Source of the DNA: Cyclobacteriaceae bacterium
GTDB lineage: Bacteria > Bacteroidota > Bacteroidia > Cytophagales > Cyclobacteriaceae
Length of the DNA: 64,000 nucleotides
Reading direction: 5' to 3'
Assembly (NCBI GenBank): GCA_013141055.1
Contig: JABFRS010000001.1
Span: forward strand, 2,228,567-2,292,566
This document shows positions 4,065-18,377 of this stretch, piece by piece (position 1 is the stretch's first letter; each line of letters begins with the position of its first letter). The notes under the pieces are model-generated. The model made no database searches and was not told the DNA's origin. It saw only the letters and a list, made by a program, of their open reading frames with translations. A program made the translations under genes and the position numbers.

Positions 4065-4385
4065 TCAGATACCAATAAAAATTGCTCCATCCTCCTCTTT
4101 TAAAGGATACGTGATCAGATCTCTCGACCGCTGTTCTCCCTCACGACCGGTTTTCATGCTGAAACGGTATCCGTGCAATGGACAGATAATCTCTCCCAAA
4201 TAGTTAACAATTCCCTTGCTAAGCGACTCGCTATTATGTGAACAACGATCTTCAACAGCGCGAAGCTGCTCATCATCCCTCACCAGACAGATGCGTTTGT
4301 TTCGCACAATCAGAAGGCGTGGCTGTTTGGGAACCACTGCTTGTTGCATTTCACCAACAGAAGAAAAGATTTTGATCCAATCCAC
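4065..4385 (-). CDS. Rieske [2Fe-2S] ferredoxin (NirD-like small subunit type)
   Basis: 106 residues with the complete Rieske cluster signature: C48-x-H50 (CSHNSESL) and C68-x-x-H71 (CPLHGYRF). The spacing and overall length match stand-alone Rieske ferredoxins of the NirD/biphenyl-dioxygenase ferredoxin type. It has no signal peptide, so it is probably a cytosolic electron carrier. No oxygenase or reductase partner is adjacent. It is divergent from the M20 gene at 4443, with 57 bases between the starts. Confidence 0.88.
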   Translation of the reverse strand: MDWIKIFSSVGEMQQAVVPKQPRLLIVRNKRICLVRDDEQLRAVEDRCSHNSESLSKGIVNYLGEIICPLHGYRFSMKTGREGEQRSRDLITYPLKEEDGAIFIGI

Positions 4386-4442: not shown

Positions 4443-5747
4443 ATGAAAAAATTATGCGTGTGTCTCTTTCTTTCGATTGCGGGAATTGCAGTATACGGCC
4501 AACCAGGTAGTGCGTTGTTGTCAAAGCTCGATCAACAGGCAAAAGAGATTCAACCAAAGGTTATTCAATGGAGAAGAGAATTTCATGAACACCCTGAACT
4601 TTCCAATCAGGAGTTTAAAACCGGAAAACTCATCGCTGAATTTCTAAAGTCACTAGGATTGGAAGTTCAATATCCTGTTGCCAGAACGGGTGTCGTGGCA
4701 ATTCTGAAAGGTTCAAAGCCAGGACCTGTCATTGCCTTGCGTGCGGACATGGATGCCTTGCCGGTGAACGAAAGAAATTCTTTGCCATTCACATCAAAAG
4801 AAAAAGCAACACTCAATGGTGTTGAAACAGGAGTGATGCACGCGTGTGGTCATGATAGTCATATGGCAATATTGATGGGCGTTGCCGAAGTGCTGTCGAA
4901 AAACAAAAACGAATTAAAAGGAACCGTAAAATTTATTTTTCAACCAGCGGAAGAAACATACCCGATTGACCAGGATGCTGGCGCGGTGTTAATGGTCAAA
5001 GAGGGAGTTCTTGATAATCCAAAAGTTGATGTGATTTTTGGTCTGCACATTCAATCACTATTGCCTTCCGGTCAACTTGCGTATCGCGCAGAAGGATTGA
5101 TGGCTGCAGTGGATGGTTTTGATATTAAAGTATCCGGAGTTGGGGCTCATGGAGCGACACCATGGGATGCGGTGGATCCGATAGTTGTTTCAGGTCAGAT
5201 TCTGGTTGGATTGCAAACAATCGTAAGTCGTCAGATCAATCTTACCAATGCTCCTGCTGTTATAACGGTTGGAAGCATTCATGGAGGCATTCGAAGAAAT
5301 ATTATTCCGGAAGAAGTGATCATGCAGGGAACCATCCGGACTTTTGACATGAGTATGCAGAAAAGTATTCATGAAAAAATAAAACAGTTGGCAACATCCA
5401 TTGCGGCAGCTTCAGGAGCAAAGGCAGAAGTTTTAATTAATCCTGAATCTCCTTTGACATACAATGATCCAAAACTTACAGCAAAAATGACATCGAGCCT
5501 GGTGCGAACAGTTGGTGAACAGAATACAAAGATCATTGCACCCGTGACAATGGCGGAAGACTTTTCTTTTTACCAGGAGAAAATTCCAGGATTATTCTTT
5601 TTCCTTGGTGCCTATCCTGCAGACATGAGCTTAACGAAAGCACCGGTGCACCACACGGCAGATTTTATGATTGATGAAAAATCTTTTGTGACGGGAGTAA
5701 GGGCGATGCTTAATCTGACAGTTGACTATATGTTTATGAAAAATTGA
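4443..5747 (+). CDS. Exported M20 family amidohydrolase (paralogue 1 of 3)
   Basis: 434 residues. The start at 4443 is chosen because it begins a clean signal peptide (MKKLCVCLFLSIAGIAVYGQ); the open frame runs further upstream but overlaps the divergent Rieske gene. M20D (amidohydrolase/IAA-amino-acid hydrolase/hippuricase-like) motifs are intact: ALRADMDALP (residues 98-107), HACGHDSH (133-140), FQPAEE (166-171, with the Glu pair of base and metal ligand), FGLH (metal His at ~202) and a late VHHTADF. The dimerisation domain lies in the middle. It probably removes an acyl group from an N-acyl amino acid in the periplasm using two metal ions. First gene of the catabolic run; it ends 2 bases before the next ATG. 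The acyl substrate is unknown. Confidence 0.92.
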   Translation: MKKLCVCLFLSIAGIAVYGQPGSALLSKLDQQAKEIQPKVIQWRREFHEHPELSNQEFKTGKLIAEFLKSLGLEVQYPVARTGVVAILKGSKPGPVIALRADMDALPVNERNSLPFTSKEKATLNGVETGVMHACGHDSHMAILMGVAEVLSKNKNELKGTVKFIFQPAEETYPIDQDAGAVLMVKEGVLDNPKVDVIFGLHIQSLLPSGQLAYRAEGLMAAVDGFDIKVSGVGAHGATPWDAVDPIVVSGQILVGLQTIVSRQINLTNAPAVITVGSIHGGIRRNIIPEEVIMQGTIRTFDMSMQKSIHEKIKQLATSIAAASGAKAEVLINPESPLTYNDPKLTAKMTSSLVRTVGEQNTKIIAPVTMAEDFSFYQEKIPGLFFFLGAYPADMSLTKAPVHHTADFMIDEKSFVTGVRAMLNLTVDYMFMKN

Positions 5748-5749
5748 CC

Positions 5750-6703
5750 ATGGAACTGAGTGAAAGAATAATAGACGCAGAAAAAAGGATAAGACCTTAT
5801 TTGAGAGAGACTCCTCTTGAATACTCGCATGTATTGAGTAGAATGACTGGTAGTGAGGTTCATCTTAAGCTTGAGAACATTCAGATCACGGGATCATTCA
5901 AAGCACGTGGCTCATTGAACAAGATCCTTTTGCTGAAAGATTCAAAAGCAAAAATTGTAACAGCGTCAACAGGAAATCATGGCTTGGGTGTTGCCAATGC
6001 ACTATCGATTGTAAAAAAGGATGGTACAATTTATTTACCACACGGTGCCTCAGAATCAAAAGTGGAGGCGATAAAGATGCGGGGGGTGCCTGTTGAATTT
6101 CATGGCAACAATTCCGAAGAGACGGAGTTGTATGTGAGGAAACTATCTGAAACGTCAGATCAGGTGTATGTATCACCGTATAATGATGTGGATGTTGTGG
6201 CAGGACAAGGTACTATTGGAGTAGAGTTGATGCGACAACTCCCGAAGATGGATGCGGTTTTTATTTCCGTGGGTGGAGGTGGTTTGATTGCGGGGATCGC
6301 AGCATATCTGAAATCTGTGAATCCAAAGATCGAAGTCGTTGCATGCTTTCCTGAAAATTCTCCCGTCATGTATGAATGTATAAAGGCAGGAGAGATCATT
6401 GAAGTTGCGGAGAAGCCAACATTATCAGATGGAACAGCAGGAGGAATTGAAAAAGGCACCATCACTTTTGAGATATGCCAGCGATGCATTGATACCTATG
6501 TGCTGGTAACAGAAGATGAAATTGCAGAATCCATGAAGCTCGTTCTAAAGCATCATCATCAAATTATTGAAGGCTCTGCGGGTGTTGCAGTAGCATCACT
6601 CATTAAGATGAAAGACAATTATAAAAACAAGAATTCAGCAATACTTATCTGTGGAGGAAACGTAAGTGAGGCTGTTCTTAAAAAATTAATGTGTAACGGA
6701 TGA
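5750..6703 (+). CDS. PLP-dependent threonine/serine dehydratase-like enzyme (EutB/BhcB type)
   Basis: 317 residues of fold-type II PLP enzyme. The Schiff-base lysine is K51 in SFKARG; the cofactor phosphate loop is SVGGGGL (173-179); STGNHG (73-78) is the substrate loop. There is no C-terminal ACT domain, so it is the short, catabolic or racemase-like form rather than biosynthetic IlvA. An in-frame TTG lies 6 bases upstream at 5744, but the ATG at 5750 is the natural start. The next gene, an ornithine-cyclodeaminase-family enzyme, overlaps by ATGA. That pairing occurs in ectoine utilisation (EutB/EutC) and in the beta-hydroxyaspartate cycle (BhcB/BhcD), so the substrate could be threonine, serine, 3-hydroxyaspartate or a related hydroxy amino acid. 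Confidence 0.88.
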   Translation: MELSERIIDAEKRIRPYLRETPLEYSHVLSRMTGSEVHLKLENIQITGSFKARGSLNKILLLKDSKAKIVTASTGNHGLGVANALSIVKKDGTIYLPHGASESKVEAIKMRGVPVEFHGNNSEETELYVRKLSETSDQVYVSPYNDVDVVAGQGTIGVELMRQLPKMDAVFISVGGGGLIAGIAAYLKSVNPKIEVVACFPENSPVMYECIKAGEIIEVAEKPTLSDGTAGGIEKGTITFEICQRCIDTYVLVTEDEIAESMKLVLKHHHQIIEGSAGVAVASLIKMKDNYKNKNSAILICGGNVSEAVLKKLMCNG

Positions 6704-7674
6704 CGACGACCCTTTCGCTTCCTGAAATAAAAAGAATAATAGAGAGCAATTCAGCAGATGATTTGATCAGAATTATTGAAGATGGGTTTGTCCTGTATGC
6801 CAGGAAGCAGGTAACAGTTCCACCCGTTGGATACCTTCCTTTCAATAAACCTCCTGGTGATGTCCATATCAAATACGGATATATTCACAATGATGATTAT
6901 TATGTGATCAAAATTGCTTCTGGTTTTTACGATAATCCTTCTTTGGGATTAAGTTCCAGCAATGGATTGATGCTGATCTTTAGTCAGAAAACAGGAACCT
7001 TACTTTCTGTTTTACTGGATGAAGGATATTTGACGGATATAAGAACTGCAGTTGCTGGAGCCATTGCGGCCAAATATCTTGCTCCCTCCAATGTAAGCAG
7101 CATTGGGATTGTAGGAACAGGAATGCAGGCACGCTTGCAACTTCAATTTCTTAGTTCGGTAACCAAATGCCGCGATGTGATTGTGTGGGGAAGAAGTAAA
7201 GAGAAGCTTGATAAGTTTAAAAAAGATCTTTCCCTAAAAGATTTTGTCATACGAATCACGACAGACATGACGCAGTTGACAAGTCGTTGTAATCTGATTG
7301 TGACGACGACTCCTTCCAAAGAGCCTTTATTATTTGCTGACGATATTCTTCCCGGTACTCACATCACAGCAATGGGCGCTGACGCAGATGGAAAGCAGGA
7401 AATAGACGTATCGCTTATCGCAAAGTGTGATATTATTGTGGCTGACAGCATCGATCAGTGCATCGATCACGGCGACATAGGGTTTGCTGTAAGAAATAAA
7501 TCAGTGGATCCTTCTTCTATTCTTTCGCTCGGAGATGTCATTGCAAATAAAAAGTTAGGAAGAAGCAATGACGAACAGACAACGATTGCCGATCTTACGG
7601 GCGTTGCCATTCAGGATATACAGATTGCCAAATACGTATTTGAAAACACAAAACTCAGTCATAGCACTTTATGA
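6700..7674 (+). CDS. Ornithine cyclodeaminase / mu-crystallin family protein (EutC/BhcD type)
   Basis: 324 residues, NAD(P)-binding. Recognised by the TDIRTAVAGAIAAKYLAP segment, the Rossmann loop GIVGTGMQARLQ, the MGADADGKQEID active-site segment and the C-terminal TIADLTGVAIQDIQIA block. Members include ornithine cyclodeaminase (ornithine to proline plus ammonia), alanine dehydrogenase, ketimine reductase, iminosuccinate reductase (BhcD) and EutC. It overlaps both neighbours by 4 bases (ATGA), so it is tightly coupled to the dehydratase upstream and the M20 gene downstream. No signal peptide, so cytosolic. Specificity cannot be assigned from motifs. Confidence 0.9.
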   Translation: MTTTLSLPEIKRIIESNSADDLIRIIEDGFVLYARKQVTVPPVGYLPFNKPPGDVHIKYGYIHNDDYYVIKIASGFYDNPSLGLSSSNGLMLIFSQKTGTLLSVLLDEGYLTDIRTAVAGAIAAKYLAPSNVSSIGIVGTGMQARLQLQFLSSVTKCRDVIVWGRSKEKLDKFKKDLSLKDFVIRITTDMTQLTSRCNLIVTTTPSKEPLLFADDILPGTHITAMGADADGKQEIDVSLIAKCDIIVADSIDQCIDHGDIGFAVRNKSVDPSSILSLGDVIANKKLGRSNDEQTTIADLTGVAIQDIQIAKYVFENTKLSHSTL

Positions 7675-8969
7675 AAACCCTTCTCATTCTTTTCTTCAGC
7701 CTTGTATCAATCTTGTCTTTCGGACAAATGGATCCCAAACTTCAGGCAAAGATTTATCAGCAGGCAAAAGACCTGGAACCCAAGCTCATTGAGTGGAGAC
7801 GAAATTTTCATGAGCATCCTGAGCTTTCCAATCGTGAATTCAAAACGGGTAAGATCGTTGCCGATTATTTAAAATCATTAGGATTGGAGGTTCAGTACCC
7901 TGTTGCAAAAACAGGTGTCGTTGCCTTATTAAGAGGAGGGAAGCCCGGACCTGTTGTTGCCTTGCGGGCCGATATTGATGGCCTTCCAGTGAATGAAAGA
8001 AACTCATTGCCCTTTGCTTCCAAAGAAAAATCTGTGCTCGCAGGTATGGAGACAGGTGTGATGCATGCGTGCGGACATGATAGCCACATGGCAATGTTAA
8101 TGGGAGTTGCAGAAATTCTTTCAAAGAATAAAAGTGAGTTGAAGGGTTCAGTAAAATTTATTTTTCAACCCGCTGAAGAAGGAGCCCCTGCCGGTGAAGA
8201 AGGTGGTGCAGCGCTTATGATCAAAGAAGGAGTTCTTGAAAACCCTAAAGTGGATGTGATTTTTGGATTGCACATTCAATCGTTACTTCCGCTGGGTCAA
8301 CTTGCATATCGTGCAGAAGGATTGATGGCAGCAGTTGATGGTGTTAATATTAAGGTGTCAGGAATTGGAGCGCATGGTGCCACACCGTGGGACAGTGTGG
8401 ATCCGATTGTAGTATCAGGTCAGATCATTACGGGACTTCAAACCATCGTGAGCCGCCAGACAGAATTGACAAAAGCACCCGCAGTTATTACGATTGGAAG
8501 CGTGCATGGAGGCATTCGCAGGAACATTATTCCAGAGGAAGTAAACATGGAAGGAACGATCAGAACTTTCGACGCAGACATGCAGAAGAAGGTGCATGAT
8601 AAAATAAAACTAACGGCAACAAAAATTGCAGAAGCATCAGGCGCAAAAGCTGAAGTTAATATTCTGATCATGTATCCGGTGACCTACAATGATCCAAAAC
8701 TTACCGCACAGATGGCTCCCAGCTTGGCGAGAGTGAGTAATGATATAAAAATCACAAATCCAGTGACGATGGCAGAAGATTTCTCCTTCTTTCAGCAAAA
8801 AATTCCAGGCTTCTTCTTCTTTCTTGGAGCATATCCAGCTGATATGAAGCTTGCAAAAAACCCAGTCCATCATACAGCAGATTTTATGATTGATGAAAGA
8901 GCTTTTGTTACCGGCGTAAAAGCTTTGACAACATTGACGCTGGACTACATGTCTCAAACCAAAAAATAA
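7671..8969 (+). CDS. Exported M20 family amidohydrolase (paralogue 2 of 3)
   Basis: 432 residues, starting in an ATGA overlap with the cyclodeaminase gene. Signal peptide MKTLLILFFSLVSILSFGQ. It has the same motifs as paralogue 1 (ALRADIDGLP, HACGHDSH, FQPAEE, FGLH, VHHTADF) and very close similarity to it, including a long nearly identical stretch around the substrate-domain junction (LAYRAEGLMAAVDG in both). Differences such as ADIDGLP for ADMDALP and AEEGAPAGEE for AEETYPIDQD are shared with paralogue 3. It probably acts on N-acyl amino acids in the periplasm. Confidence 0.92.
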   Translation: MKTLLILFFSLVSILSFGQMDPKLQAKIYQQAKDLEPKLIEWRRNFHEHPELSNREFKTGKIVADYLKSLGLEVQYPVAKTGVVALLRGGKPGPVVALRADIDGLPVNERNSLPFASKEKSVLAGMETGVMHACGHDSHMAMLMGVAEILSKNKSELKGSVKFIFQPAEEGAPAGEEGGAALMIKEGVLENPKVDVIFGLHIQSLLPLGQLAYRAEGLMAAVDGVNIKVSGIGAHGATPWDSVDPIVVSGQIITGLQTIVSRQTELTKAPAVITIGSVHGGIRRNIIPEEVNMEGTIRTFDADMQKKVHDKIKLTATKIAEASGAKAEVNILIMYPVTYNDPKLTAQMAPSLARVSNDIKITNPVTMAEDFSFFQQKIPGFFFFLGAYPADMKLAKNPVHHTADFMIDERAFVTGVKALTTLTLDYMSQTKK

Positions 8970-8975
8970 TTCAAC

Positions 8976-10277
8976 ATGAAAAATATTTTAATTCTTTGTT
9001 TGATTCTGCCCGTTATGGTATTCGGGCAGGTAAATCCTAAACTTCAAAGCAAGCTCGAAGCTCAGGCGAAGGCGATTGAATCGAAGATGATCGAATGGCG
9101 ACGCCACTTTCATGAGTTTCCTGAATTGTCGAATCGCGAAACCAATACAGGAAAGTACATCGCAGATTATTTAAAGACATTGGGAATTGAAGTTCAGTAT
9201 CCCGTTGCGAAAAACGGAGCAGTTGGAATTTTAAAAGGCGCAAAGCCCGGTCCTGTTATAGCCTTACGTGCTGATATTGATGGACTTCCTGTAACAGAAA
9301 GAGGCAGCTTACCTTTTGCTTCCAAAGTAAAAACAATTTACAACGGACAGGAAACTGGTGTAATGCATGCATGCGGACATGATTCGCATACAGCGATCTT
9401 GATGGCTGTGGCAGACATACTTTCAAAAAACAGAAATGATCTGAAGGGTACGATCAAATTTATATTTCAACCTGCAGAAGAAGGAGTGCCAGCTGATGAA
9501 GAAGGTGGTGCAGACCTGATGGTGAAAGAAGGTGTACTCGACAATCCTAAAGTCGATGTCATTTTTGGTTTACATATTTCATCCGTCACGACATTGGGAA
9601 CATTGACCTATCGTTCCGGTGGAATAATGGCAGCGGCGGATACCTATTCTGTTAAGGTAAAAGGAGTTCAGTCACACGGTGCATTTCCATGGGCAAGTGT
9701 TGATCCTATTGTTGTTTCATCACAGATCATCATGGGATTTCAAACGATCATCAGTCGTCAGACAGAATTAACGAAAGAAGCGGCGGTGATCAGTGTTGGA
9801 AGAATTCAGGCAGGCATTCGCGAGAACATCATTCCTGAAGAAGCATTTTTCGCTGGAACAATTCGCACGCTTGATGTAGAGATGCAGGAAAAAATTCATG
9901 AAAAAATGAAACTGACGGCAACCAAGATAGCTGAAGCATCAGGAGCAACAGCAGAAGTGACAATCAGAAAATTCACTCCTGTCACCTATAATGATCCAGC
10001 ATTGACCATCAAAGCAGTTCCAAGTCTTGTCAGAGCAGCCGGATCAGATCAGGTAGCGATCGTTCATGCAGTAACGGGCGCAGAGGATTTCGCTTACTAT
10101 CAAAGGAAAGTTCCTGGATTCTTTTTCTTTGTCGGCGCTATGTCACCCGATCAGGATCCAAAAAAAGCTCCTTCACATCATACTCCGGATTTCTTTATTG
10201 ATGAAAGAGCTTTTATTACCGGCCTGAAAGCTATGCTGAATCTTACGGTAGATTACATGTATATGCCCCAGAAATAA
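8976..10277 (+). CDS. Exported M20 family amidohydrolase (paralogue 3 of 3)
   Basis: 433 residues, 6 bases after paralogue 2. Signal peptide MKNILILCLILPVMVFGQ. Motifs are ALRADIDGLP, HACGHDSH, FQPAEE, FGLH and a late SHHTPDF. It is the most divergent of the three in the substrate-facing part: FGLHISSVTTLGTL replaces FGLHIQSLLP, and KGVQSHGAFPWASVD replaces GAHGATPWD. This suggests a different acyl or amino-acid preference. It ends the run of tight overlaps; a possible promoter follows before the APC transporter. Confidence 0.92.
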   Translation: MKNILILCLILPVMVFGQVNPKLQSKLEAQAKAIESKMIEWRRHFHEFPELSNRETNTGKYIADYLKTLGIEVQYPVAKNGAVGILKGAKPGPVIALRADIDGLPVTERGSLPFASKVKTIYNGQETGVMHACGHDSHTAILMAVADILSKNRNDLKGTIKFIFQPAEEGVPADEEGGADLMVKEGVLDNPKVDVIFGLHISSVTTLGTLTYRSGGIMAAADTYSVKVKGVQSHGAFPWASVDPIVVSSQIIMGFQTIISRQTELTKEAAVISVGRIQAGIRENIIPEEAFFAGTIRTLDVEMQEKIHEKMKLTATKIAEASGATAEVTIRKFTPVTYNDPALTIKAVPSLVRAAGSDQVAIVHAVTGAEDFAYYQRKVPGFFFFVGAMSPDQDPKKAPSHHTPDFFIDERAFITGLKAMLNLTVDYMYMPQK

Positions 10278-10308
10278 TTTGATACTGTGTTAGATAGTTA
10301 TAAGTTTA
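10278..10308 (+). promoter_or_regulatory. Possible Bacteroidota-type promoter before APC transporter
   Basis: TTTG at 10278-10281 is followed after 19 bases by TAAGTTTA at 10301-10308, a 7 of 8 match to the TAnnTTTG -7 consensus. The ATG at 10318 is only 9 bases downstream, which would give an almost leaderless transcript. Read-through from the M20 genes is equally possible. Confidence 0.35.
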
Positions 10309-10317
10309 AACTACTTA

Positions 10318-11628
10318 ATGAGTAACACAGAAAACTCCGGAAAGATCGGCTTATGGACCAGCACCGCATTGGTGGTTGGAAACATGATCGGTTCAGGAGT
10401 TTTTTTACTTCCGGCGTCACTTGCTGCGTTTGGTTCTATCGGGTTATTGGGCTGGATCGGATCCTCAGCGGGCGCTATTGTTTTGGCCATTCTTTACAGT
10501 AATCTGAGTAAGATCTTTCCCAAATTGACGGGTGGGCCTTATGCATATTCAAGAGTTGGCCTTGGTGACTTTGCAGGATTTTTAGTGGCGTGGGGATATT
10601 GGGTTTCTATCTGGTGTACCAACGCAGCGATCTCGGTCGCTTTCGTAAGTTATCTCACGGTTTTTTTTCCTGTCCTCAAAACAAATTCTCTTCTCGCATT
10701 AGGTACTGGCCTTAGTGCGATATGGTTTCTAACATGGATCAACACGCGGGGGGTTAAAGAAGCGGGTGCTGTTCAGTTCATTACTACGATATTAAAAGTG
10801 ACACCGTTGATTGCGGTTTCAATCGTTGGACTTTTTTACATGAACTTCGATCACTTCAGTCAGTTTAACATCAGCGGTAAATCTGATTTTGCGGCGATCA
10901 CAGCAACAGCAACATTGACTCTTTTTGCTTTCCTTGGTTTGGAGAGTGCCACAATTCCATCCGGCAACATTGAGAATCCTGAAAAGACCATTCCGCGGGC
11001 AACGATGATCGGAACGTGGGTAACAATTTTGATTTACGTTTTAGGATCAGTAACGGTTATAGGAATGATCCCGGTAACGGAATTAAAAGATTCAAGCGCA
11101 CCTTTTGCAGATGCAGCAGCATTGATTTGGGGAGATCAGGCACGTTACTGGGTTGCTGCAGGTGCAATCATTTCAACCTTTGGAGCATTGAACGGCTGGA
11201 TATTAATACAAGGTCAGATGCCAATGGCGGCAGCCAAAGACAGATTGTTTCCTGCGATCTTCAAAAAGGAAAATGGAAAAGGAATTCCAGCTATGGGAAT
11301 AATTATTTCCAGTCTTCTTATCTCTGTTTTAATGATGACGAATTTTACTAACGGACTTACAGACACTTTTACTTTTATGGTGCTGATGACCACCGTCACG
11401 ATTTTAGTTCCATATCTTTTTTCAGCAGCTTCATATGGTGTGATTATTCTTGAGAATAAGTTCTGGAAACGCGATTCCATCAGTCAGATCATCATTGCTG
11501 TGCTGGGATTTCTGTTTTCATTGTGGGCAATTCTTGGATCAGGACAAGAGACAGTCTATTGGGGGTTCATAGCAATACTTGCAGGAATTCCTTTTTATGT
11601 TTGGATGAAGAGAGAACACCATGACTAA
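10318..11628 (+). CDS. APC superfamily amino-acid transporter (AdiC/PotE-like)
   Basis: 436 residues with about 12 membrane helices. The N-terminus GNMIGSGVFLLPASLAAFG carries the unwound helix-1 GSG substrate motif, and the next part (GPYAYSRVGLGDFAGFLVAW) resembles the arginine/agmatine and ornithine/putrescine antiporters of the basic-amino-acid subgroup. It lies 6 bases before the dimethylargininase-like gene and 40 after the last M20 gene, which supports uptake or exchange of an arginine-related or deacylated amino acid. An exact substrate is not assigned. Confidence 0.9.
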   Translation: MSNTENSGKIGLWTSTALVVGNMIGSGVFLLPASLAAFGSIGLLGWIGSSAGAIVLAILYSNLSKIFPKLTGGPYAYSRVGLGDFAGFLVAWGYWVSIWCTNAAISVAFVSYLTVFFPVLKTNSLLALGTGLSAIWFLTWINTRGVKEAGAVQFITTILKVTPLIAVSIVGLFYMNFDHFSQFNISGKSDFAAITATATLTLFAFLGLESATIPSGNIENPEKTIPRATMIGTWVTILIYVLGSVTVIGMIPVTELKDSSAPFADAAALIWGDQARYWVAAGAIISTFGALNGWILIQGQMPMAAAKDRLFPAIFKKENGKGIPAMGIIISSLLISVLMMTNFTNGLTDTFTFMVLMTTVTILVPYLFSAASYGVIILENKFWKRDSISQIIIAVLGFLFSLWAILGSGQETVYWGFIAILAGIPFYVWMKREHHD

Positions 11629-11634
11629 TTATTA

Positions 11635-12513
11635 ATGAAAGTAACGTGTCAATCGGAGTTTAAAAAGATCAAAACAGTTTTCATCAAGAATGTTGAGAAC
11701 GCATTTGTCGATGATGCGCAAATAGAAAAAGAATGGCAGGGGCTTAATTTTCTCAGTAAACCTGACCTTGGAAAAGCAATTCAGGAGTATCAGTGGTTTG
11801 AACAAATATTCCTGAATGAAGGAGTTGAACTTCAATATTTTCCAAAAGAAAAAAGCGTTTCAATGGATTCTATCTACTGCAGAGATGCAGCGATAGCAAC
11901 CGATAGTGGGATGATCATCTGTTCCATGGGTAAACCAGCGCGCAAGAATGAACCGGAAGCAGAACGAAAAGCCTTTGAGGAACATGGAATAAAGATTCTG
12001 GGAAGCATCCAGTCGCCAGGAACTGTTGAAGGTGGAGATGTTGCGTGGATTGATGAAAAAACTCTTGCTGTTGGACACACCTATCGAACAAATGAAAACG
12101 GCATTGAACAATTAAGAAAATTATTGAATCCTGTTGGAGTAAATGTGATGACCGTTCCACTGCCACACTATAAAGGACCATCAGATGTTTTTCATCTCAT
12201 GTCTATCCTGAGCCCCATTGATAAAGATCTTGCTGTGGTTTATTCTCCACTGATGCCGATTGTTTTCAGAAATGAATTGCTGGGAAGAGGGTATAAACTT
12301 GTTGAAGTTCCAGAGGAGGAATTTGAAAGCATGGGATGCAATGTATTGGCAATAAGCCCCCGAAAGTGCCTGATGGTAAAAGGCAATTCTAAAACCAAGG
12401 CGCTACTTGAAAAAGCGGGATGCACAGTATTAGAGTATGATGGGTCCGAAATAAGTGTAAAGGGTGGTGGCGGCCCGACCTGTCTGACCCGACCGATTTT
12501 AAGAGAAGGGTAA
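11635..12513 (+). CDS. Dimethylargininase / amidinotransferase-family hydrolase (DDAH-like)
   Basis: 292 residues of the guanidine-modifying (pentein) superfamily. The alignment to DDAH can be read directly: SPGTVEGGDV matches the APGTVEAGD block, RTNENG matches RTNAEG, the catalytic His is H187 in DVFHLM, and the nucleophilic Cys is C283 in GGGGPTCLTRP. DDAH hydrolyses N-methylated arginines to citrulline and methylamines; close relatives are arginine deiminases and amidinotransferases. No signal peptide. It is probably co-transcribed with the APC carrier. Residues deciding methylarginine versus arginine were not resolved. Confidence 0.85.
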   Translation: MKVTCQSEFKKIKTVFIKNVENAFVDDAQIEKEWQGLNFLSKPDLGKAIQEYQWFEQIFLNEGVELQYFPKEKSVSMDSIYCRDAAIATDSGMIICSMGKPARKNEPEAERKAFEEHGIKILGSIQSPGTVEGGDVAWIDEKTLAVGHTYRTNENGIEQLRKLLNPVGVNVMTVPLPHYKGPSDVFHLMSILSPIDKDLAVVYSPLMPIVFRNELLGRGYKLVEVPEEEFESMGCNVLAISPRKCLMVKGNSKTKALLEKAGCTVLEYDGSEISVKGGGGPTCLTRPILREG

Positions 12514-12524
12514 AGATTAAAAGT

Positions 12525-12532
12525 TAAATTTG
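12525..12532 (+). promoter_or_regulatory. Putative -7 promoter element (TAAATTTG)
   Basis: Exact match to TAnnTTTG, 16 bases before the ATG at 12549 and just after the DDAH-like gene stop. No clear TTTG is found at -33, so the assignment rests on the -7 box and its position between functionally unrelated genes. Confidence 0.4.
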
Positions 12533-12548
12533 AGCACACCAACCTGAC

Positions 12549-13511
12549 ATGACCCGAGAAACTCCGAAAGAACTTTTTGAAAAGGGACTCATCACAGAAG
12601 AACAGTTCAAAAAAATTGATCTTATCGTTTCAGGAAAGATCGTTTCTGTTTTTTATGAATTAAGATCGTTGCTGTATCTCGGCGTGATGCTTTTTACAGC
12701 CGGAGTTGGAATTCTTATCTATCAGAATATTGGCGAGCTGGGACATTTGCTGGCTATAATCACCTTATCTGTGTTGACGGTGATATGTTTTTGGTATGTT
12801 TTCCGTCATGCACTGCCCTATTCAAATGGAGAGATAAAGGCACCCACACCCTACTTTGATTATATCGTTTTACTGGGAAGTCTTTTGTTTATTTCTGTGC
12901 AAGGTTATTTGCAGTTTCAATTTGGATGGCTGGATGAAAACCTTGGGATCAGCACATTAATTACGGCAGCATTCTTTTTCTTTATTGCCTATCGCTTCGA
13001 TCATTTAGGGGTTTTATCCTTGGCGATTACTGCACTGGCATCTTTCTGGAGTATCAGCATATCTCCGCAGAAGTGGTATAGCGGCAATTTCTTTTCAGGT
13101 CCTCACATTTATACAACAGCAATCATTTTTGGCTCAACGGTAGGAGGGATTGCTGTGCTTCTGGATAAAAAAGGAATCAAGAAGCACTTTACGTTTACGT
13201 ATCTGAATTTTTGTACCCTTATCTTTTTTGTTGGTTCGATAGCGGGATTATTTTCGAGTGAGATTTATTTCTTTTATGTGATATTGATCTATGCCGGATG
13301 TGCATTTGCCTACTACATCGCACGGTGGGAAAAATCATTCCTGTTCATGCTTTACGCATTCATTGCAGCTTATATCGCCACGACTTACCTTTTGGCAGAA
13401 ACAATTTTTCGCGATGCGATTGAAATCTGGTTCCTCTATTCAATAGCCTCTTGTGGAGGATTCATTTATTTCCTGATCTCCTACAGAAAGCATTTTAATC
13501 AAAAGTCATGA
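12549..13511 (+). CDS. DUF2157-like polytopic membrane protein
   Basis: 320 residues. The first ~40 form a soluble N-terminal helix pair (ELFEKGLITEEQFKKIDLIVSG) typical of DUF2157, followed by about nine membrane helices. The function of the family is unknown. It overlaps the next membrane-protein gene by 4 bases (ATGA), so the two are likely made together and may form a complex. Confidence 0.78.
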   Translation: MTRETPKELFEKGLITEEQFKKIDLIVSGKIVSVFYELRSLLYLGVMLFTAGVGILIYQNIGELGHLLAIITLSVLTVICFWYVFRHALPYSNGEIKAPTPYFDYIVLLGSLLFISVQGYLQFQFGWLDENLGISTLITAAFFFFIAYRFDHLGVLSLAITALASFWSISISPQKWYSGNFFSGPHIYTTAIIFGSTVGGIAVLLDKKGIKKHFTFTYLNFCTLIFFVGSIAGLFSSEIYFFYVILIYAGCAFAYYIARWEKSFLFMLYAFIAAYIATTYLLAETIFRDAIEIWFLYSIASCGGFIYFLISYRKHFNQKS

Positions 13512-14668
13512 GCAGCGCATATAACGAAACAAACGTTTATAACCTGGCTGTGATCAAGGAGGCGAAGCGCTGGAATAAAAGTCAGTTCATCGATAATCAA
13601 CAACTCTCAGTAATTCGGGAGACTTACAAAGTCCCATTCTATCACCCGAATTTTACCATCAGGATCATACTTTTTGTTGCCACTATTCTGGCACTCAGTG
13701 GCGTCACCGGATTCTTCTTCTTGATCTTTGCCGATGCTGGTGAAACAGTGATGTCAATTGCGGGATTATTTTATGGAGTAGCGTCATTCGTTGTTCTTGA
13801 AAAAGCATTTATAGGAAACAATCATTATAAGTCCGGCGTCACTGAAGCATTGCTATATCATGCGGCGGGTTGCATCATTCTTGGATTGGCGGGCTTAACT
13901 GACTTTAACCCTCATGTTATCATGTGGTCGTGCCTGTTTGTAATTTCCTTTGCTGCCATTCGATACATCGATATGCTCTGCACACTCGCTGCAGTTGTAT
14001 CACTTGCTGCAGTATTGTTCTTTGAGTTTTACAATATGGGTGGAATCTTTCAGCAGATCATTCCATTCATTTTTATTTTAGGATTTACCCCGATTTACTT
14101 TCTTTCAAAAAGACTTTCAAAACGCCGGGATCTTAAACTCTGGAGAACCAACTTTCTTATAGTGGAGCATGCAAGTCTGTTGCTGATTTATCTGGGAGGA
14201 AACTATCTGGTAGTTCGCGAATTGAGTGTCGCCATGCTTGATCTGCAACTGGAACCTGGTCAGGACATACCTTTTGCAATAATTTTTTATGCATTAACGG
14301 TTATCATTCCTGTCACGTATTTGTATTTCGGGATAAAGAAAAAAGATATGGTCTTGATTCGCGTAAGCTTGATTGTGCTCGCGTTGTCAGTTTTTACATT
14401 TAAATATTATTACAATTTCGGTCATCCGGAAATTACAATCACGATCGCCGGTGTTATTTTATTATTGATATCCATTGCCCTTCTTAATTATCTGAAGATA
14501 AATCGGGATGGATTCACGCGTGAAAATCTTTTGACTGAGAAGTGGGCGGGAATGAATGTTGAGGCCTTTGTTGTCTCACAAACCATGGGAGGAAATCAGG
14601 GTGCAGCACCAAAAGTTCATGGTGGAGGTGGAAGTTTTGGTGGTGGGGGAGCCAGCGGAGATTATTAA
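13508..14668 (+). CDS. Polytopic membrane protein with glycine-rich C-terminal tail
   Basis: 386 residues with about ten membrane helices, preceded by a ~55-residue soluble N-terminus. It is probably a companion of the DUF2157-like protein (similar layout, overlapping genes). The end reads GGGGSFGGGGASGDY. Such tails (GGGxFGGGGASG plus an aromatic or acidic end) are usual on TPM/YgcG-domain membrane proteins, but no TPM domain is present here. Function unknown. Confidence 0.72.
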   Translation: MSSAYNETNVYNLAVIKEAKRWNKSQFIDNQQLSVIRETYKVPFYHPNFTIRIILFVATILALSGVTGFFFLIFADAGETVMSIAGLFYGVASFVVLEKAFIGNNHYKSGVTEALLYHAAGCIILGLAGLTDFNPHVIMWSCLFVISFAAIRYIDMLCTLAAVVSLAAVLFFEFYNMGGIFQQIIPFIFILGFTPIYFLSKRLSKRRDLKLWRTNFLIVEHASLLLIYLGGNYLVVRELSVAMLDLQLEPGQDIPFAIIFYALTVIIPVTYLYFGIKKKDMVLIRVSLIVLALSVFTFKYYYNFGHPEITITIAGVILLLISIALLNYLKINRDGFTRENLLTEKWAGMNVEAFVVSQTMGGNQGAAPKVHGGGGSFGGGGASGDY

Positions 14669-14759
14669 AAATCAATTTTTTGTGATATCTGCTTCGATAA
14701 TTTGATGTTCAGATCTCTCAGATTTCTTTCATTGAAAACACTAAGAAGAAAATAATATT

Positions 14760-16205
14760 ATGAAATCATACCTCGCCCTGGTATTAACCTGTCTGACAAC
14801 GATAACGGTTGCTCAAAAACTCAAGTCAAACCCTAACAAAGACTTCGTTATTAAATCTGTTGAAAAGCATCAGCAGGAACTGATCGGTATGAGTGACAGG
14901 ATCTGGGCTTATGCAGAGACAGCACTCAAGGAATATAAATCTGCTAAAGAACTTGCAGACTATGCAGAAGCGCAGGGTTTTACCGTGAAGCGTGGCGTTT
15001 CAGGAATGCCAACAGCTTTCACAGCTGAATATGGTTCGGGTAAACCAGTGATCGGCATCATGGGAGAGTTCGATGCTTTGCCAGGCATTTCACAAAAGGC
15101 ACAATCAACCCGTGAAGCTTTGGAACCCGGCGCACCCGGACACGGATGTGGTCACAACATGTTTGGACCGGGGAGTCTTGGTGCTGCGGTTGCAATTAAA
15201 GAGTTGATGCAGCAGGGAAAACTAAAAGGAACTATCCGGTTTTTCGGAACACCAGCAGAAGAAGCAGTGGGAGGAAAAATCTATATGGCACGCGATGGCT
15301 TGTTTAAAGATGTCGACGTGTGTCTCGACTGGCATCCCGCAGCGGAAAACAATGCTAATACACAAAGCTCACAGGCAATCATTGACTTTGTTGTTGAGTT
15401 TAAAGGTCTAGCTGCTCACGCTGCCGCCGATCCATGGAATGGTAAAAGTGCTGTTGATGGTCTGGAAGCATTCACGCATGGTGTAAATCTTTTGCGTGAA
15501 CATGTTCGCCCAAGTGTTCGCATGCACTATGCGATTGTATCAGGTGGTGATGTTCCCAACGTCGTTCCGGAGTATGCAAAGGTTTGGATGTGGGTACGTG
15601 ATTCCAAAAGAACTGGTATTGAAGAAGTGTTTGCACGTGTGAAAGAGATTGCAAAAGGTGCAGCCATCATCGCCGGTGTTGAATCTAAAGTCACAGTGCA
15701 AACAGGTGATTATGAAATTCTGGTGAATCTTAAGGGAGCACAGACATTGCAAAAAAATCTCGAAATACTGGGACCTATCGTTTATACACCTGAAGAAACT
15801 GCTTTTGCGAAAAAGATTCAGGAAGCACAAGGCGCGAAGCAAACAGGACTCGATGGTGCCATTCATCCATTGAAAGAAACCAAGGAAACTCCTGTCGGAG
15901 GGTCAACCGATGTTGGAGATATTAGTTGGATCGTTCCCGAAATAACTCTTGAAGCAACAACAGCTCCGGCAAATACGGCATGGCATGGTTGGTCCGTAGT
16001 GGCGTGCGGTGGAATGTCTATCGGACATAAAGGAATGATGCTGGCGGCAAAATCCCTTGCCATGACGATGGTTGATCTTTATGAAAACGAACAATTGCGC
16101 AAGGATATTCGTGCGGAGTTTGATAAGCGTGTGGCGGGTGAAATTTATAAGGCATACATTCCCGATGGGCCTCCACCAATACCGAAAGAAGGAGCAAAGA
16201 ACTGA
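14760..16205 (+). CDS. Exported M20 amidohydrolase, AbgB-like
   Basis: 481 residues with signal peptide MKSYLALVLTCLTTITVAQ. It belongs to the AbgB (p-aminobenzoyl-glutamate hydrolase subunit B) branch of M20, not the IAA-hydrolase branch of the three paralogues above: metal motifs are GEFDALP, GHGCGHNMFGPGS and FFGTPAEEAVGG, with a late SIGHKGM segment. AbgB normally pairs with AbgA; no AbgA is adjacent. The exported form presumably cleaves an amide-linked amino acid in the periplasm. It is followed by a strong terminator, so it ends a transcription unit. Confidence 0.88.
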   Translation: MKSYLALVLTCLTTITVAQKLKSNPNKDFVIKSVEKHQQELIGMSDRIWAYAETALKEYKSAKELADYAEAQGFTVKRGVSGMPTAFTAEYGSGKPVIGIMGEFDALPGISQKAQSTREALEPGAPGHGCGHNMFGPGSLGAAVAIKELMQQGKLKGTIRFFGTPAEEAVGGKIYMARDGLFKDVDVCLDWHPAAENNANTQSSQAIIDFVVEFKGLAAHAAADPWNGKSAVDGLEAFTHGVNLLREHVRPSVRMHYAIVSGGDVPNVVPEYAKVWMWVRDSKRTGIEEVFARVKEIAKGAAIIAGVESKVTVQTGDYEILVNLKGAQTLQKNLEILGPIVYTPEETAFAKKIQEAQGAKQTGLDGAIHPLKETKETPVGGSTDVGDISWIVPEITLEATTAPANTAWHGWSVVACGGMSIGHKGMMLAAKSLAMTMVDLYENEQLRKDIRAEFDKRVAGEIYKAYIPDGPPPIPKEGAKN

Positions 16206-16209
16206 TCAT

Positions 16210-16239
16210 AAAAAAACCCGGCGTTGTTCGGGTTTTTTT
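16210..16239 (+). terminator. Rho-independent terminator after AbgB-like gene
   Basis: Stem AAAAAAACCCG (16210-16220) pairs with CGGGTTTTTTT (16229-16239) around the 8-base loop GCGTTGTT, followed by more T residues. Confidence 0.88.
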
Positions 16240-16285
16240 ATTTTATCTTAATGTCTGTTGCGTTGTAAATCCTAAATCACCCCTT

Positions 16286-18343
16286 ATGAGAAAAATAATT
16301 TCAGTCTTTTTCCTTGCCTGTTTTTTCCAGGGCTATACTCAAACGGTTCCGACTTTTGAACAAATCATATCTCTTCGTGGTGTGGGAAATCCTGTTCTTT
16401 CACCCGATGGAAAACAAATTGCCTTTACAGTAGGAACAACAGATTGGAATGAGAATCGCTTTGATACAGAGATATGGATTTCCAATGATGGAAGGAAACC
16501 TTTTCAACTAACGAATACCAGCAAAGGAAGCAGTACGAATGTTTCCTTCTCACCCGATGGACAATGGATTGCATTTTTATCAGATCGGGGAAACAAATCA
16601 CAGATTCATGTAATGCGTGCAGATGGCGGTGAAGCGCGCGCTGTAACAAAAGAAGAAGAGTCCGTTGGAGGATTTGAATGGCTTCCATCCGGCACCGGAT
16701 TTATTTTTTCCAAGCAGGAAAAAGAAGACAAGAATAAAAAGGAAATTGAAAAACGCTATGGCGGATTTGAAACGGATGACAAAGAATTCACTCTTTCACA
16801 TTTATGGCAGGTGGACTTCAACACAGATCCCCGTGATCCATCAGAGCTACCCTGTTATCAAACTGTTGATTCATTGAAAGTAAAATCAGGATGCATTCAG
16901 TTTCCTAAAGCAAAGCGGCTAACAGAAGGAAAATTTACAGTCAGCTCTTTTTTAATTTCTCCTGATGGCAAAACCATTGCCTTCAACCATCAACCGGATC
17001 CACTGATCAATTCATTTTCAAAGTCAGACATTTCAACGATAGACATTGCTTCAAGAAAAACCACAAAACTGATTTCCAACCTCAGTTCAGACGGAGTGGA
17101 AGAATGGTCACCCGACTCCAAAGAATTGATTTACACTACGAATCTGTCGGACTCGACTTCAAACTTTTACACCAACTCTAAAGTATTTATTGTAAAGCTG
17201 GCAGATAAAACTTCACGGCAAGTGGCTATAGATTTTGATGAAGATCTTGGTGGAGGCTTTAACTGGAAATCGTCAGGCATTTATTTCACAGTCTTTAATA
17301 AAACAAAAAGACCAATCTATAAGCTTGATCCAGGAACCGGTATAGTTTCAGTTTTTATGAATACACCGGACCAGATCTATGGACTTAGCTTTGCAAAGCT
17401 TGCAGATAAATTTGCTTTCACCGGACGCAATGGCGACGAACTGAATGAAGTTTATGTTTCACCGTTTGCTTCTCCTGCACCAAAGAAGATCACTGAAATG
17501 ACTTCACAGCTTAGTTCATGGAAGCTGGGTACCAGTGAAGTGATCAGTTGGAAAAGCAAGGATGGTGCAACCATTGAAGGAGTTCTTCATAAACCTAAAA
17601 ATTATGATCCTTCAAAGAAATATCCACTGCTGGTCGTGATCCATGGTGGACCCACAGGCATCGACACACCCACACCGGTTCCATCTTACGTTTATCCAAT
17701 TGTTCAATGGCTTGAAAAAGGATGTTTGGTATTGCGTCCTAACTATCGCGGATCAGCGGGGTATGGTGAGAAGTTCAGATCGTTGAATGTTAAAAATCTT
17801 GGAGTAGGTGATTCGTGGGACATTCTTTCAGGTGTTGATTATCTTGATAAGAAGGGCATGATCGATAAAAATAAAATGGGTTGTATGGGTTGGAGTCAAG
17901 GCGGGTATATCTCTGCTTTCTTAACAACGACCAGCAATGTGTTCAAAGGAATTTCTGTGGGTGCGGGAATTTCAGATTGGATGACTTATTATGTGAGTAC
18001 TGACATTCATCCTTTCACACGTCAGTATTTGAAAGCAACACCCTGGAGCGATCAGGCGATCTACAATAAGACCTCTCCTATGTTTTACATCAATCAGGCG
18101 AAGACACCAACATTAATTCAACATGGTGAATTTGATAGAAGAGTACCGATCTCCAACGCATATCAACTGCTTCAGGGACTTCGCGATAAGGATGTCAAAG
18201 CAGAATTAATTGTTTATAAAGGGTTTGGTCATGGAATCTCAAAACCAAAAGAAAGATTAGCAGCAACATGGCACAACTGGCAATGGTTTAATAAATATGT
18301 GTGGGGAGAGAATGTAGAGTTGCCTACTGGAAATGAAAAATAA
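16286..18343 (+). CDS. Exported S9 family peptidase (prolyl-oligopeptidase type)
   Basis: 685 residues. Signal peptide (ends around GYTQ), an N-terminal beta-propeller with TolB/WD40-like repeats (repeated SPDGK/SPDGQ), and a C-terminal alpha/beta hydrolase. The catalytic triad can be read: Ser537 in GWSQGG, Asp617 in HGEFDRR and His649 in GFGHGI. HGGPTG supplies the oxyanion region. It should cleave short peptides in the periplasm (dipeptidyl or acylaminoacyl peptidase-like). Same orientation as a second S9 gene 34 bases on. Confidence 0.9.
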   Translation: MRKIISVFFLACFFQGYTQTVPTFEQIISLRGVGNPVLSPDGKQIAFTVGTTDWNENRFDTEIWISNDGRKPFQLTNTSKGSSTNVSFSPDGQWIAFLSDRGNKSQIHVMRADGGEARAVTKEEESVGGFEWLPSGTGFIFSKQEKEDKNKKEIEKRYGGFETDDKEFTLSHLWQVDFNTDPRDPSELPCYQTVDSLKVKSGCIQFPKAKRLTEGKFTVSSFLISPDGKTIAFNHQPDPLINSFSKSDISTIDIASRKTTKLISNLSSDGVEEWSPDSKELIYTTNLSDSTSNFYTNSKVFIVKLADKTSRQVAIDFDEDLGGGFNWKSSGIYFTVFNKTKRPIYKLDPGTGIVSVFMNTPDQIYGLSFAKLADKFAFTGRNGDELNEVYVSPFASPAPKKITEMTSQLSSWKLGTSEVISWKSKDGATIEGVLHKPKNYDPSKKYPLLVVIHGGPTGIDTPTPVPSYVYPIVQWLEKGCLVLRPNYRGSAGYGEKFRSLNVKNLGVGDSWDILSGVDYLDKKGMIDKNKMGCMGWSQGGYISAFLTTTSNVFKGISVGAGISDWMTYYVSTDIHPFTRQYLKATPWSDQAIYNKTSPMFYINQAKTPTLIQHGEFDRRVPISNAYQLLQGLRDKDVKAELIVYKGFGHGISKPKERLAATWHNWQWFNKYVWGENVELPTGNEK

Positions 18344-18377
18344 AGAATTAGAAAAGAAAATTTAATTGATTCAAAAA

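Follow-up and report, generated by a model that had tools for sequence, protein, structure and literature searches.

We analyzed a run of seven genes, all on the plus strand, at positions 4443-12513 of a 64,000-nucleotide stretch of a Cyclobacteriaceae genome (the window; bases 2228567-2292566 of contig C1 in the 4.65-Mb genome). The run splits into three modules: a locus of M20D hydrolases, a pair of genes encoding a dehydratase and a protein of the ornithine cyclodeaminase (OCD) family, and a second pair encoding an amino-acid carrier and a hydrolase of the dimethylarginine dimethylaminohydrolase (DDAH)/arginine deiminase (ADI) superfamily. The strongest part of this picture is the widely conserved dehydratase-OCD pair, found repeatedly inside the M20D locus; the weakest is the idea that carrier and DDAH-like enzyme belong to a single arginine pathway. 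Our preferred explanation, which we hold tentatively and regard as just short of an even call, is that an M20D locus old in the genus received a mobile dehydratase-reductase module, and that the carrier and DDAH-like genes joined it in this lineage as a second module.

In the list of open reading frames (ORFs) the order of the genes is M20D-1 (4443-5747), a pyridoxal 5'-phosphate (PLP)-dependent enzyme of the threonine/serine-dehydratase type (5744-6703), an OCD/mu-crystallin-family protein (6700-7674), M20D-2 (7671-8969), M20D-3 (8976-10277), an AdiC-like amino-acid carrier of the APC family (10318-11628) and the DDAH-like hydrolase (11635-12513). Spacing is tight throughout. M20D-1 and the dehydratase gene overlap by 4 bases if the latter starts at the TTG at 5744 and are separated by 2 bases if it starts at the ATG at 5750. 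The dehydratase and OCD genes overlap by 4 bases, as do the OCD and M20D-2 genes, while gaps of 6 bases separate M20D-2 from M20D-3 and the carrier from the hydrolase gene. The widest gap within the run, 40 bases (10278-10317), lies between M20D-3 and the carrier. The original prediction had described such a closely spaced, same-strand run and had named the superfamilies of its products; the ORF list bears out the former, and Pfam and NCBIfam assignments agree with the latter for all seven genes.

The dehydratase-OCD pair and the M20D locus

All three M20D proteins, which resemble amidohydrolases and carboxypeptidases, exceeded the TIGR01891 cut-off of 153.75 bits (360.7 for M20D-1, and 347.2 and 337.2 bits). 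Each begins with a Sec-type leader (MKKLCVCLFLSIAGIAVYGQ in M20D-1) as read from the sequence by eye. No leader was seen by eye on the enzymes between the M20D genes. Both readings agree with what had been reported earlier.

To place these genes in the genus we used matches to M20D-2 at an E-value of 1e-100, which were found in 41 of 58 genomes, among them 35 of the 36 genomes of the same genus (our own included). Two M20D genes were directly adjacent in 11 of the 36 loci read around these matches; two more loci had one ORF between them (L158, L160), and in another two both lay in a single reading frame (L159, L163). A Rieske-domain gene and/or a 2986-type gene was near the M20D gene in 24 of the 36 loci, and DUF2157, its neighbor, M20-4 or S9 genes were retained downstream in several. 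Because M20D-2 is nearly universal in the genus and the same flanks recur in the loci read, the M20D locus is genus background and old in the genus, and its gene content differs among genus members. In a quick tree of 55 rows M20D-2 and M20D-3 each belonged to a broad group, which we read as two old orthologous groups, and the M20D-1 proteins of the window, G102 and G167 formed a single group (SH-aLRT 96) adjoining M20D-2. M20D-1 is probably a duplicate of M20D-2 that, together with it, frames the inserted dehydratase-OCD pair.

Three other arrangements were seen in these loci. In L159 (8202-10847) and L163 (8774-11419) the two M20D genes are continuous in one frame of 881 codons, with the second leader in mid-frame. 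In G104 (L158, 8821-9804) an oxidoreductase-like gene, of the quinone oxidoreductase type by eye, is placed between two M20D genes with 4-base overlaps and is another cargo at that position. In G130 the M20D block and the Rieske-domain gene have a VanA-type Rieske oxygenase gene (L145, 15387-16421) between them.

The OCD gene is sporadic: 7 of the 62 genus genomes carry it. Of the 97 other family-sample genomes, seven have a match at 52-56% identity and two more have one at 32-34%. In four of the seven OCD-bearing genus genomes it lies between M20D genes (the window; G102, L142; G130, L145; G167, L209), and for this reason the coupling of the pair with M20D looks real. In G167 the OCD frame, flanked by the genes for the dehydratase and the second M20D protein, is interrupted by a stop, reflecting either a sequencing error or decay. 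A quick OCD tree, which has a very long outgroup and many open forks, clustered the proteins of the window, G102 and G130 (96) and nested them in a set of 17 rows (96) that also holds the three remaining genus proteins, one from the Pyrinomonadaceae and others from several phyla; the seven family members fell elsewhere. Since the genus proteins group with other phyla and apart from their family, the tree suggests that the OCD gene was gained laterally.

To follow the pair beyond the genus, we scanned named genomes for OCD relatives, taking the 80 best of at least 533 confirmed loci together with seven family-sample loci (87 in all). ORFs were called with a simple longest-frame script, and the five loci without a called OCD ORF were omitted from the tally of 82. 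Partner classes were assigned by BLAST, using representatives drawn from the near ORFs themselves, where near means within four ORF places. One locus (L031) is the same record as L142 and another (L032) lies within the contig of L145, so that both count here and in the genus tally. The sources of these loci range from Legionella and Acidobacteria through Heimdallarchaeota.

Dehydratases made up 37 of 347 near ORFs on the same strand as OCD, none of 221 near ORFs on the opposite strand and none of 451 ORFs further away. A dehydratase gene neighbored the OCD gene in 37 of the 82 loci, in Asgard archaea as well as in bacteria; 35 of the 37 touched it, 25 of these with gaps of 30 bases or less. 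PLP proteins like VioD and GntC were similarly concentrated (37/347 near on the same strand, 5/221 near on the opposite strand and 1/451 far), and 20 of the 82 loci had both partners. Relatives of threonine synthase (7/347 near, 2/451 far) and of homoserine kinase (6/347 near, none far) also occurred, with one representative of each scanned.

Several of these observations weigh against tying the pair to M20D hydrolases. In three genus genomes (L204, L206, L208) the pair is away from M20D genes and stands beside a protein of about 650 residues and two carboxyltransferase-domain proteins as in 5-oxoprolinase. In L206, the only one of the three that was scanned, the large protein combines NRAMP and LamB/YcsF domains; L206 and L208 also have proteins of 487 and 577 residues, which in L206 are an aminopeptidase P and a histone-deacetylase-domain protein. 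Among the 82 loci an M20D gene was near OCD only in L031 and L032, both from the genus, and a peptidase survey of the loci, biased in that its seeds came from the same loci, found no M20D gene beside OCD outside the genus. None of the scored partners was present in 23 of the 82 loci, some of which are cut by contig ends. The pair thus also keeps other partners (VioD/GntC-like, threonine-synthase plus homoserine-kinase, and 5-oxoprolinase-type genes), and M20D genes are not its usual neighbors.

Some of these other neighborhoods recur. A VioD/GntC-like PLP "aminotransferase" gene stands beside the pair or a lone OCD gene in L038, L042, L044, L052, L058, L061, L063, L066, L073, L077, L078, L087, L098, L100, L106 and other loci, in bacteria and Asgard archaea, and the VioD/GntC-like, dehydratase and OCD genes are a candidate for a conserved three-gene pathway. 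OCD is followed by relatives of threonine synthase and homoserine kinase in L025, L064, L068, L075, L082 and L092, and by a ThrC-type gene alone in L099. In the Acidobacteria, the pair in L033, a locus from the Pyrinomonadaceae, is directly followed by an M20 protein of non-M20D type with an export-type leader. A literature search by titles and the beginnings of abstracts returned, among the matches listed, no description of the present gene set or of the VioD-like-dehydratase-OCD trio.

The profiles and the predicted fold point to a common chemistry for the pair. Among the listed models the dehydratase passed only PRK06815 (NF005292; 424.2 bits, cut-off 371), followed by EutB and TdcB. Its PLP lysine (K51 counted from the ATG, K53 from the TTG) was identical in 42 of 42 aligned dehydratases, which supports the earlier statement that this active site is intact. 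The OCD protein met the gathering score of PF02423 (OCD/mu-crystallin superfamily), to which its fold also assigns it. Its best models were PRK06823 (414.5 bits, cut-off 438), then PRK08291, EutC and archaeal alanine dehydrogenase, and it fell far under the ornithine cyclodeaminase model PRK07589 (97.5 bits, cut-off 350). The predicted structure (pLDDT, a predicted model-confidence score, 90.5) came closest to those of iminosuccinate reductase, alanine dehydrogenase and pyrroline-carboxylate reductase, with ornithine cyclodeaminase slightly behind, and its top match was BhcD (6rqa), named as an iminosuccinate reductase. The motif H56-x-K58 was identical in 30 of 30 chosen rows; aligned alanine dehydrogenase has arginine in the first of these positions. 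Taken from the profile ranking, the fold neighbors and this motif comparison, the likely logic of the pair is dehydration of a beta-hydroxy amino acid followed by reductive capture of the imine, with the OCD protein as the probable imine reductase. That the substrate is serine or another beta-hydroxy amino acid is a guess.

The carrier and the DDAH-like hydrolase

The carrier was below the cut-offs of both the AdiC model PRK10644 (351.2 bits, cut-off 574) and the subfamily model TIGR00905 (354.2 bits, cut-off 409.05), and it matched AdiC structures with up to 273.6 bits. The hydrolase exceeded the Pfam cut-offs for ADI (88.8 bits) and DDAH (70.3 bits). It was below every dimethylargininase cut-off in NCBIfam (99.2/340, 72.8/450 and 35.1/300 bits) and below those for arginine deiminase (77/489.1 bits for TIGR01078 and 90.3/414 for NF002381). 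E132, H187 and C283 were invariant in 32 of 32 rows of chosen close homologues (70-82% identical), so the intact H187/C283 site described earlier is confirmed at that depth. E132 and H187 align with DDAH residues, and we take the three to be the catalytic Glu, His and Cys of the guanidino-modifying superfamily. Of 8,000 scored homologue candidates, 7,997 passed 1e-20. Judged by these scores, the hydrolase belongs to a common subfamily of its own, and the database name (N-dimethylarginine dimethylaminohydrolase / arginine deiminase family) has no cut-off backing here.

DDAH-like genes were present in 35 of 62 genus genomes and 13 of 98 family-sample genomes. The carrier gene was adjacent to the DDAH gene in 8 of 12 family-sample loci outside our own genome (one of them of the same genus) and in 12 of 16 further DDAH loci, where the other neighbors varied. 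No M20D gene was seen in the 12 family loci, of which stretches of 4-17 kb were read. Carrier and hydrolase are therefore their own conserved pair, separable from the M20D, dehydratase and OCD genes. Next to the carrier and/or DDAH gene, 8 of the 12 family loci (L192-L199) have a Rieske oxygenase gene; NCBIfam assigned three of these oxygenases (two typical, one longer) and Pfam one, and the rest were judged from their first residues. The Rieske oxygenase, carrier and DDAH genes could possibly make up a three-gene route that handles a basic amino acid bearing methyl or hydroxyl groups. The ring-hydroxylating oxygenase family had no match in our own genome.

Within the genus, M20D and DDAH genes could both be placed in 22 genomes. 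They were on different contigs in 14 (13 without G102), which does not by itself prove distance, and on one contig in eight. In seven of these eight they lay within 16 kb of each other and in one they were far apart, a regional linkage that speaks for some relation between them; five of the seven have M20D and DDAH on opposite strands. A co-oriented run of M20D and carrier-DDAH genes was found in the window and in G119 (L157, where the pair and the adjacent block share a strand), and contig ends point to one in G102. One end of the G102 contigs carries two M20D genes and the carrier (L175), another carries the DDAH gene, DUF2157, the 13508-type gene, M20-4, S9, one ORF and S9 (L212), and the latter order is close to that of the window. 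In G117 (L141) the carrier follows the M20D pair.

DDAH and OCD co-occur somewhat. DDAH was present in six of the seven OCD-bearing genus genomes versus 29 of the 55 others (p 0.13), and in three of the seven OCD-bearing family-sample genomes versus 9 of 90 (p 0.04, kinship ignored), at different places in those genomes.

Extent of the run and flanking genes

The run probably continues past the hydrolase gene to 16205. Three more plus-strand genes follow with gaps of 35, -4 and 91 bases: a DUF2157 membrane protein (12549-13511; ORF list and Pfam), a protein without a Pfam match (13508-14668), both of them flanks kept downstream in several relatives, and M20-4 (14760-16205), an M20 hydrolase of another branch with an export leader (profiles and relatives' loci). 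This extension is proposed because an intergenic, terminator-like hairpin of 14 pairs lies at 16208-16241 on the plus strand, where it may end the transcription unit; terminator-like sites across the whole region are not in excess (9, versus a shuffle mean of 10.2). On the other side, a minus-strand gene for a Rieske-domain protein of 106 amino acids (4065-4385) forms the divergent flank that the M20D locus has in many relatives. Between 14760 and 20564 the window has M20-4 and two S9 peptidase genes, and 4443-20564 as a whole is rich in peptidase-type genes with leaders.

Known systems and competing explanations

The pair resembles two characterized or proposed systems closely without belonging to either. 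BhcB and BhcD of the beta-hydroxyaspartate cycle carry out dehydration and imine reduction with a dehydratase and an OCD-family imine reductase, the latter being the top fold match noted above. The window proteins reach only 217.1/550 and 165.9/500 bits on the corresponding models, and they have H56-x-K58 where alanine dehydrogenase has arginine. In EutB-EutC of hydroxyectoine catabolism, a PLP threonine-dehydratase-type enzyme is likewise paired with an OCD-family reductase, and the same field supplies the M20-type deacetylase model DoeB2. The dehydratase is below both EutB cut-offs (246/413.35 bits for TIGR02991 and 275.5/413 for PRK07476), and the OCD protein is below that of EutC (275.1/471.65, TIGR02992). 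Dehydration followed by imine reduction has been proposed for EutB-EutC, and a 2018 review calls EutABC chemistry not biochemically evaluated (PMC5924519). According to PMC4113996, the imine product of trans-3-hydroxyproline dehydratase is reduced by an OCD-family pyrroline-2-carboxylate reductase, found through gene neighborhood; that dehydratase is a non-PLP member of the proline racemase superfamily, whereas the one here uses PLP. By their TIGR01891 scores, the M20D proteins are like M20D aminoacylases, CpsA and indole-3-acetic acid (IAA)-amino acid hydrolases. Among solved structures, M20D-2 matches YxeP (an M20 peptidase), IAA-amino acid hydrolase homolog 2 and an N-alpha-acyl-glutamine aminoacylase best. 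The M20D proteins of the run stay below the CpsA equivalog cut-off (376-414 bits, cut-off 500), and they differ from these enzymes in having leaders and in occurring as three copies in one run. The carrier and the hydrolase are clear members of the superfamilies of the arginine/agmatine antiporter AdiC and of DDAH and arginine deiminase.

It could be argued that the run reflects ordinary scavenging, with the M20D proteins serving as exported peptidases of general use, the dehydratase simply deaminating serine and threonine, and the remaining genes being unrelated amino-acid genes that share no pathway. We regard this as a serious possibility, though one we doubt more than we believe. The dehydratase does exceed the NCBIfam serine/threonine dehydratase cut-off, the peptidase-type genes do continue to 20564, and gene content at the locus does vary within the genus. 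However, plain deamination needs no OCD partner, yet the dehydratase and OCD genes sit close together in many genomes, and the pair is repeatedly placed between M20D genes. A (hydroxy)ectoine-type catabolic locus, with EutB, EutC and an M20 deacetylase like DoeB2, is highly improbable. The three models match their gene types strongly, but all below cut-off (DoeB2 at 261-275.5/550 bits), and no EutD ectoine hydrolase scored above cut-off in our own genome (98.8% complete; best 53.8/613 bits). Moreover, ectoine breakdown is cytosolic, whereas the M20D proteins here look exported.

The original prediction had united all seven genes in a single route, in which blocked arginine-family or hydroxy amino acids are stripped outside the cell, imported by the AdiC-like carrier and degraded by the OCD, dehydratase and DDAH-like enzymes. 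Its joining of M20D to the dehydratase-OCD pair survives in the four genus genomes described above; a single arginine-family route that also takes in the carrier and the DDAH-like enzyme is not supported. The single route gains from the linkage of M20D and DDAH within 16 kb, from the carrier and carrier-DDAH placements in G117 and G119 and from the partial co-occurrence of OCD and DDAH. All of its genes appear in one run here, and apparently also in G102, the only other genome that seems to have all of them, spread across three contig ends (L142, L175, L212); confinement to this genome, which the original prediction had named as counting against it, is thus nearly what was found. DDAH is far more frequent in the genus than OCD (35 versus 7 of 62), M20D and DDAH are mostly on different contigs or opposite strands, a Rieske oxygenase often accompanies carrier and DDAH, and neither the OCD protein nor the hydrolase reaches the cut-offs that an arginine-family function would call for. 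We therefore consider the single route very unlikely.

In our preferred explanation, an old M20D locus that received a mobile dehydratase-reductase pair, the M20D enzymes would be exported to the periplasm and there free amino acids from small peptides or N-acylated forms, and the freed amino acid would be taken up into the cell. The PLP dehydratase would then take water off serine, threonine or a related beta-hydroxy amino acid to give an enamine/imine, and its OCD-family partner would use NAD(P)H to reduce this to the amino acid without the hydroxyl group. The second module, made up of the AdiC-like carrier and the DDAH-type hydrolase, would act on a basic substrate of the guanidino type. 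It could further be speculated, although we think it unlikely, that the pair is a portable module that reductively removes the hydroxyl group from beta-hydroxy amino acids and serves bacteria and Asgard archaea in at least four settings (with M20D hydrolases, the VioD/GntC-like PLP enzyme, the threonine-synthase/homoserine-kinase pair and the 5-oxoprolinase genes). Here the M20D enzymes would feed it from serine-containing lipoamino acids of the cell itself or of its neighbors, and the carrier would take up the rest. Gly-Ser and Gly-Ser-Orn lipids are known from Bacteroidota (PMC8433624).

The dehydratase and OCD families are usually annotated as an unrelated "threonine dehydratase" and "ornithine cyclodeaminase". 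The pair is adjacent over many phyla with recurring but differing partners, and one set of assays could therefore re-annotate many genomes and could reveal whether reductive removal of a beta-hydroxyl is a general trick. At the level of the genus, the arrangement connects deacylases that are probably exported with a defined step in the cytosol, and provides a testable candidate for the turnover of N-acyl or lipoamino acids.

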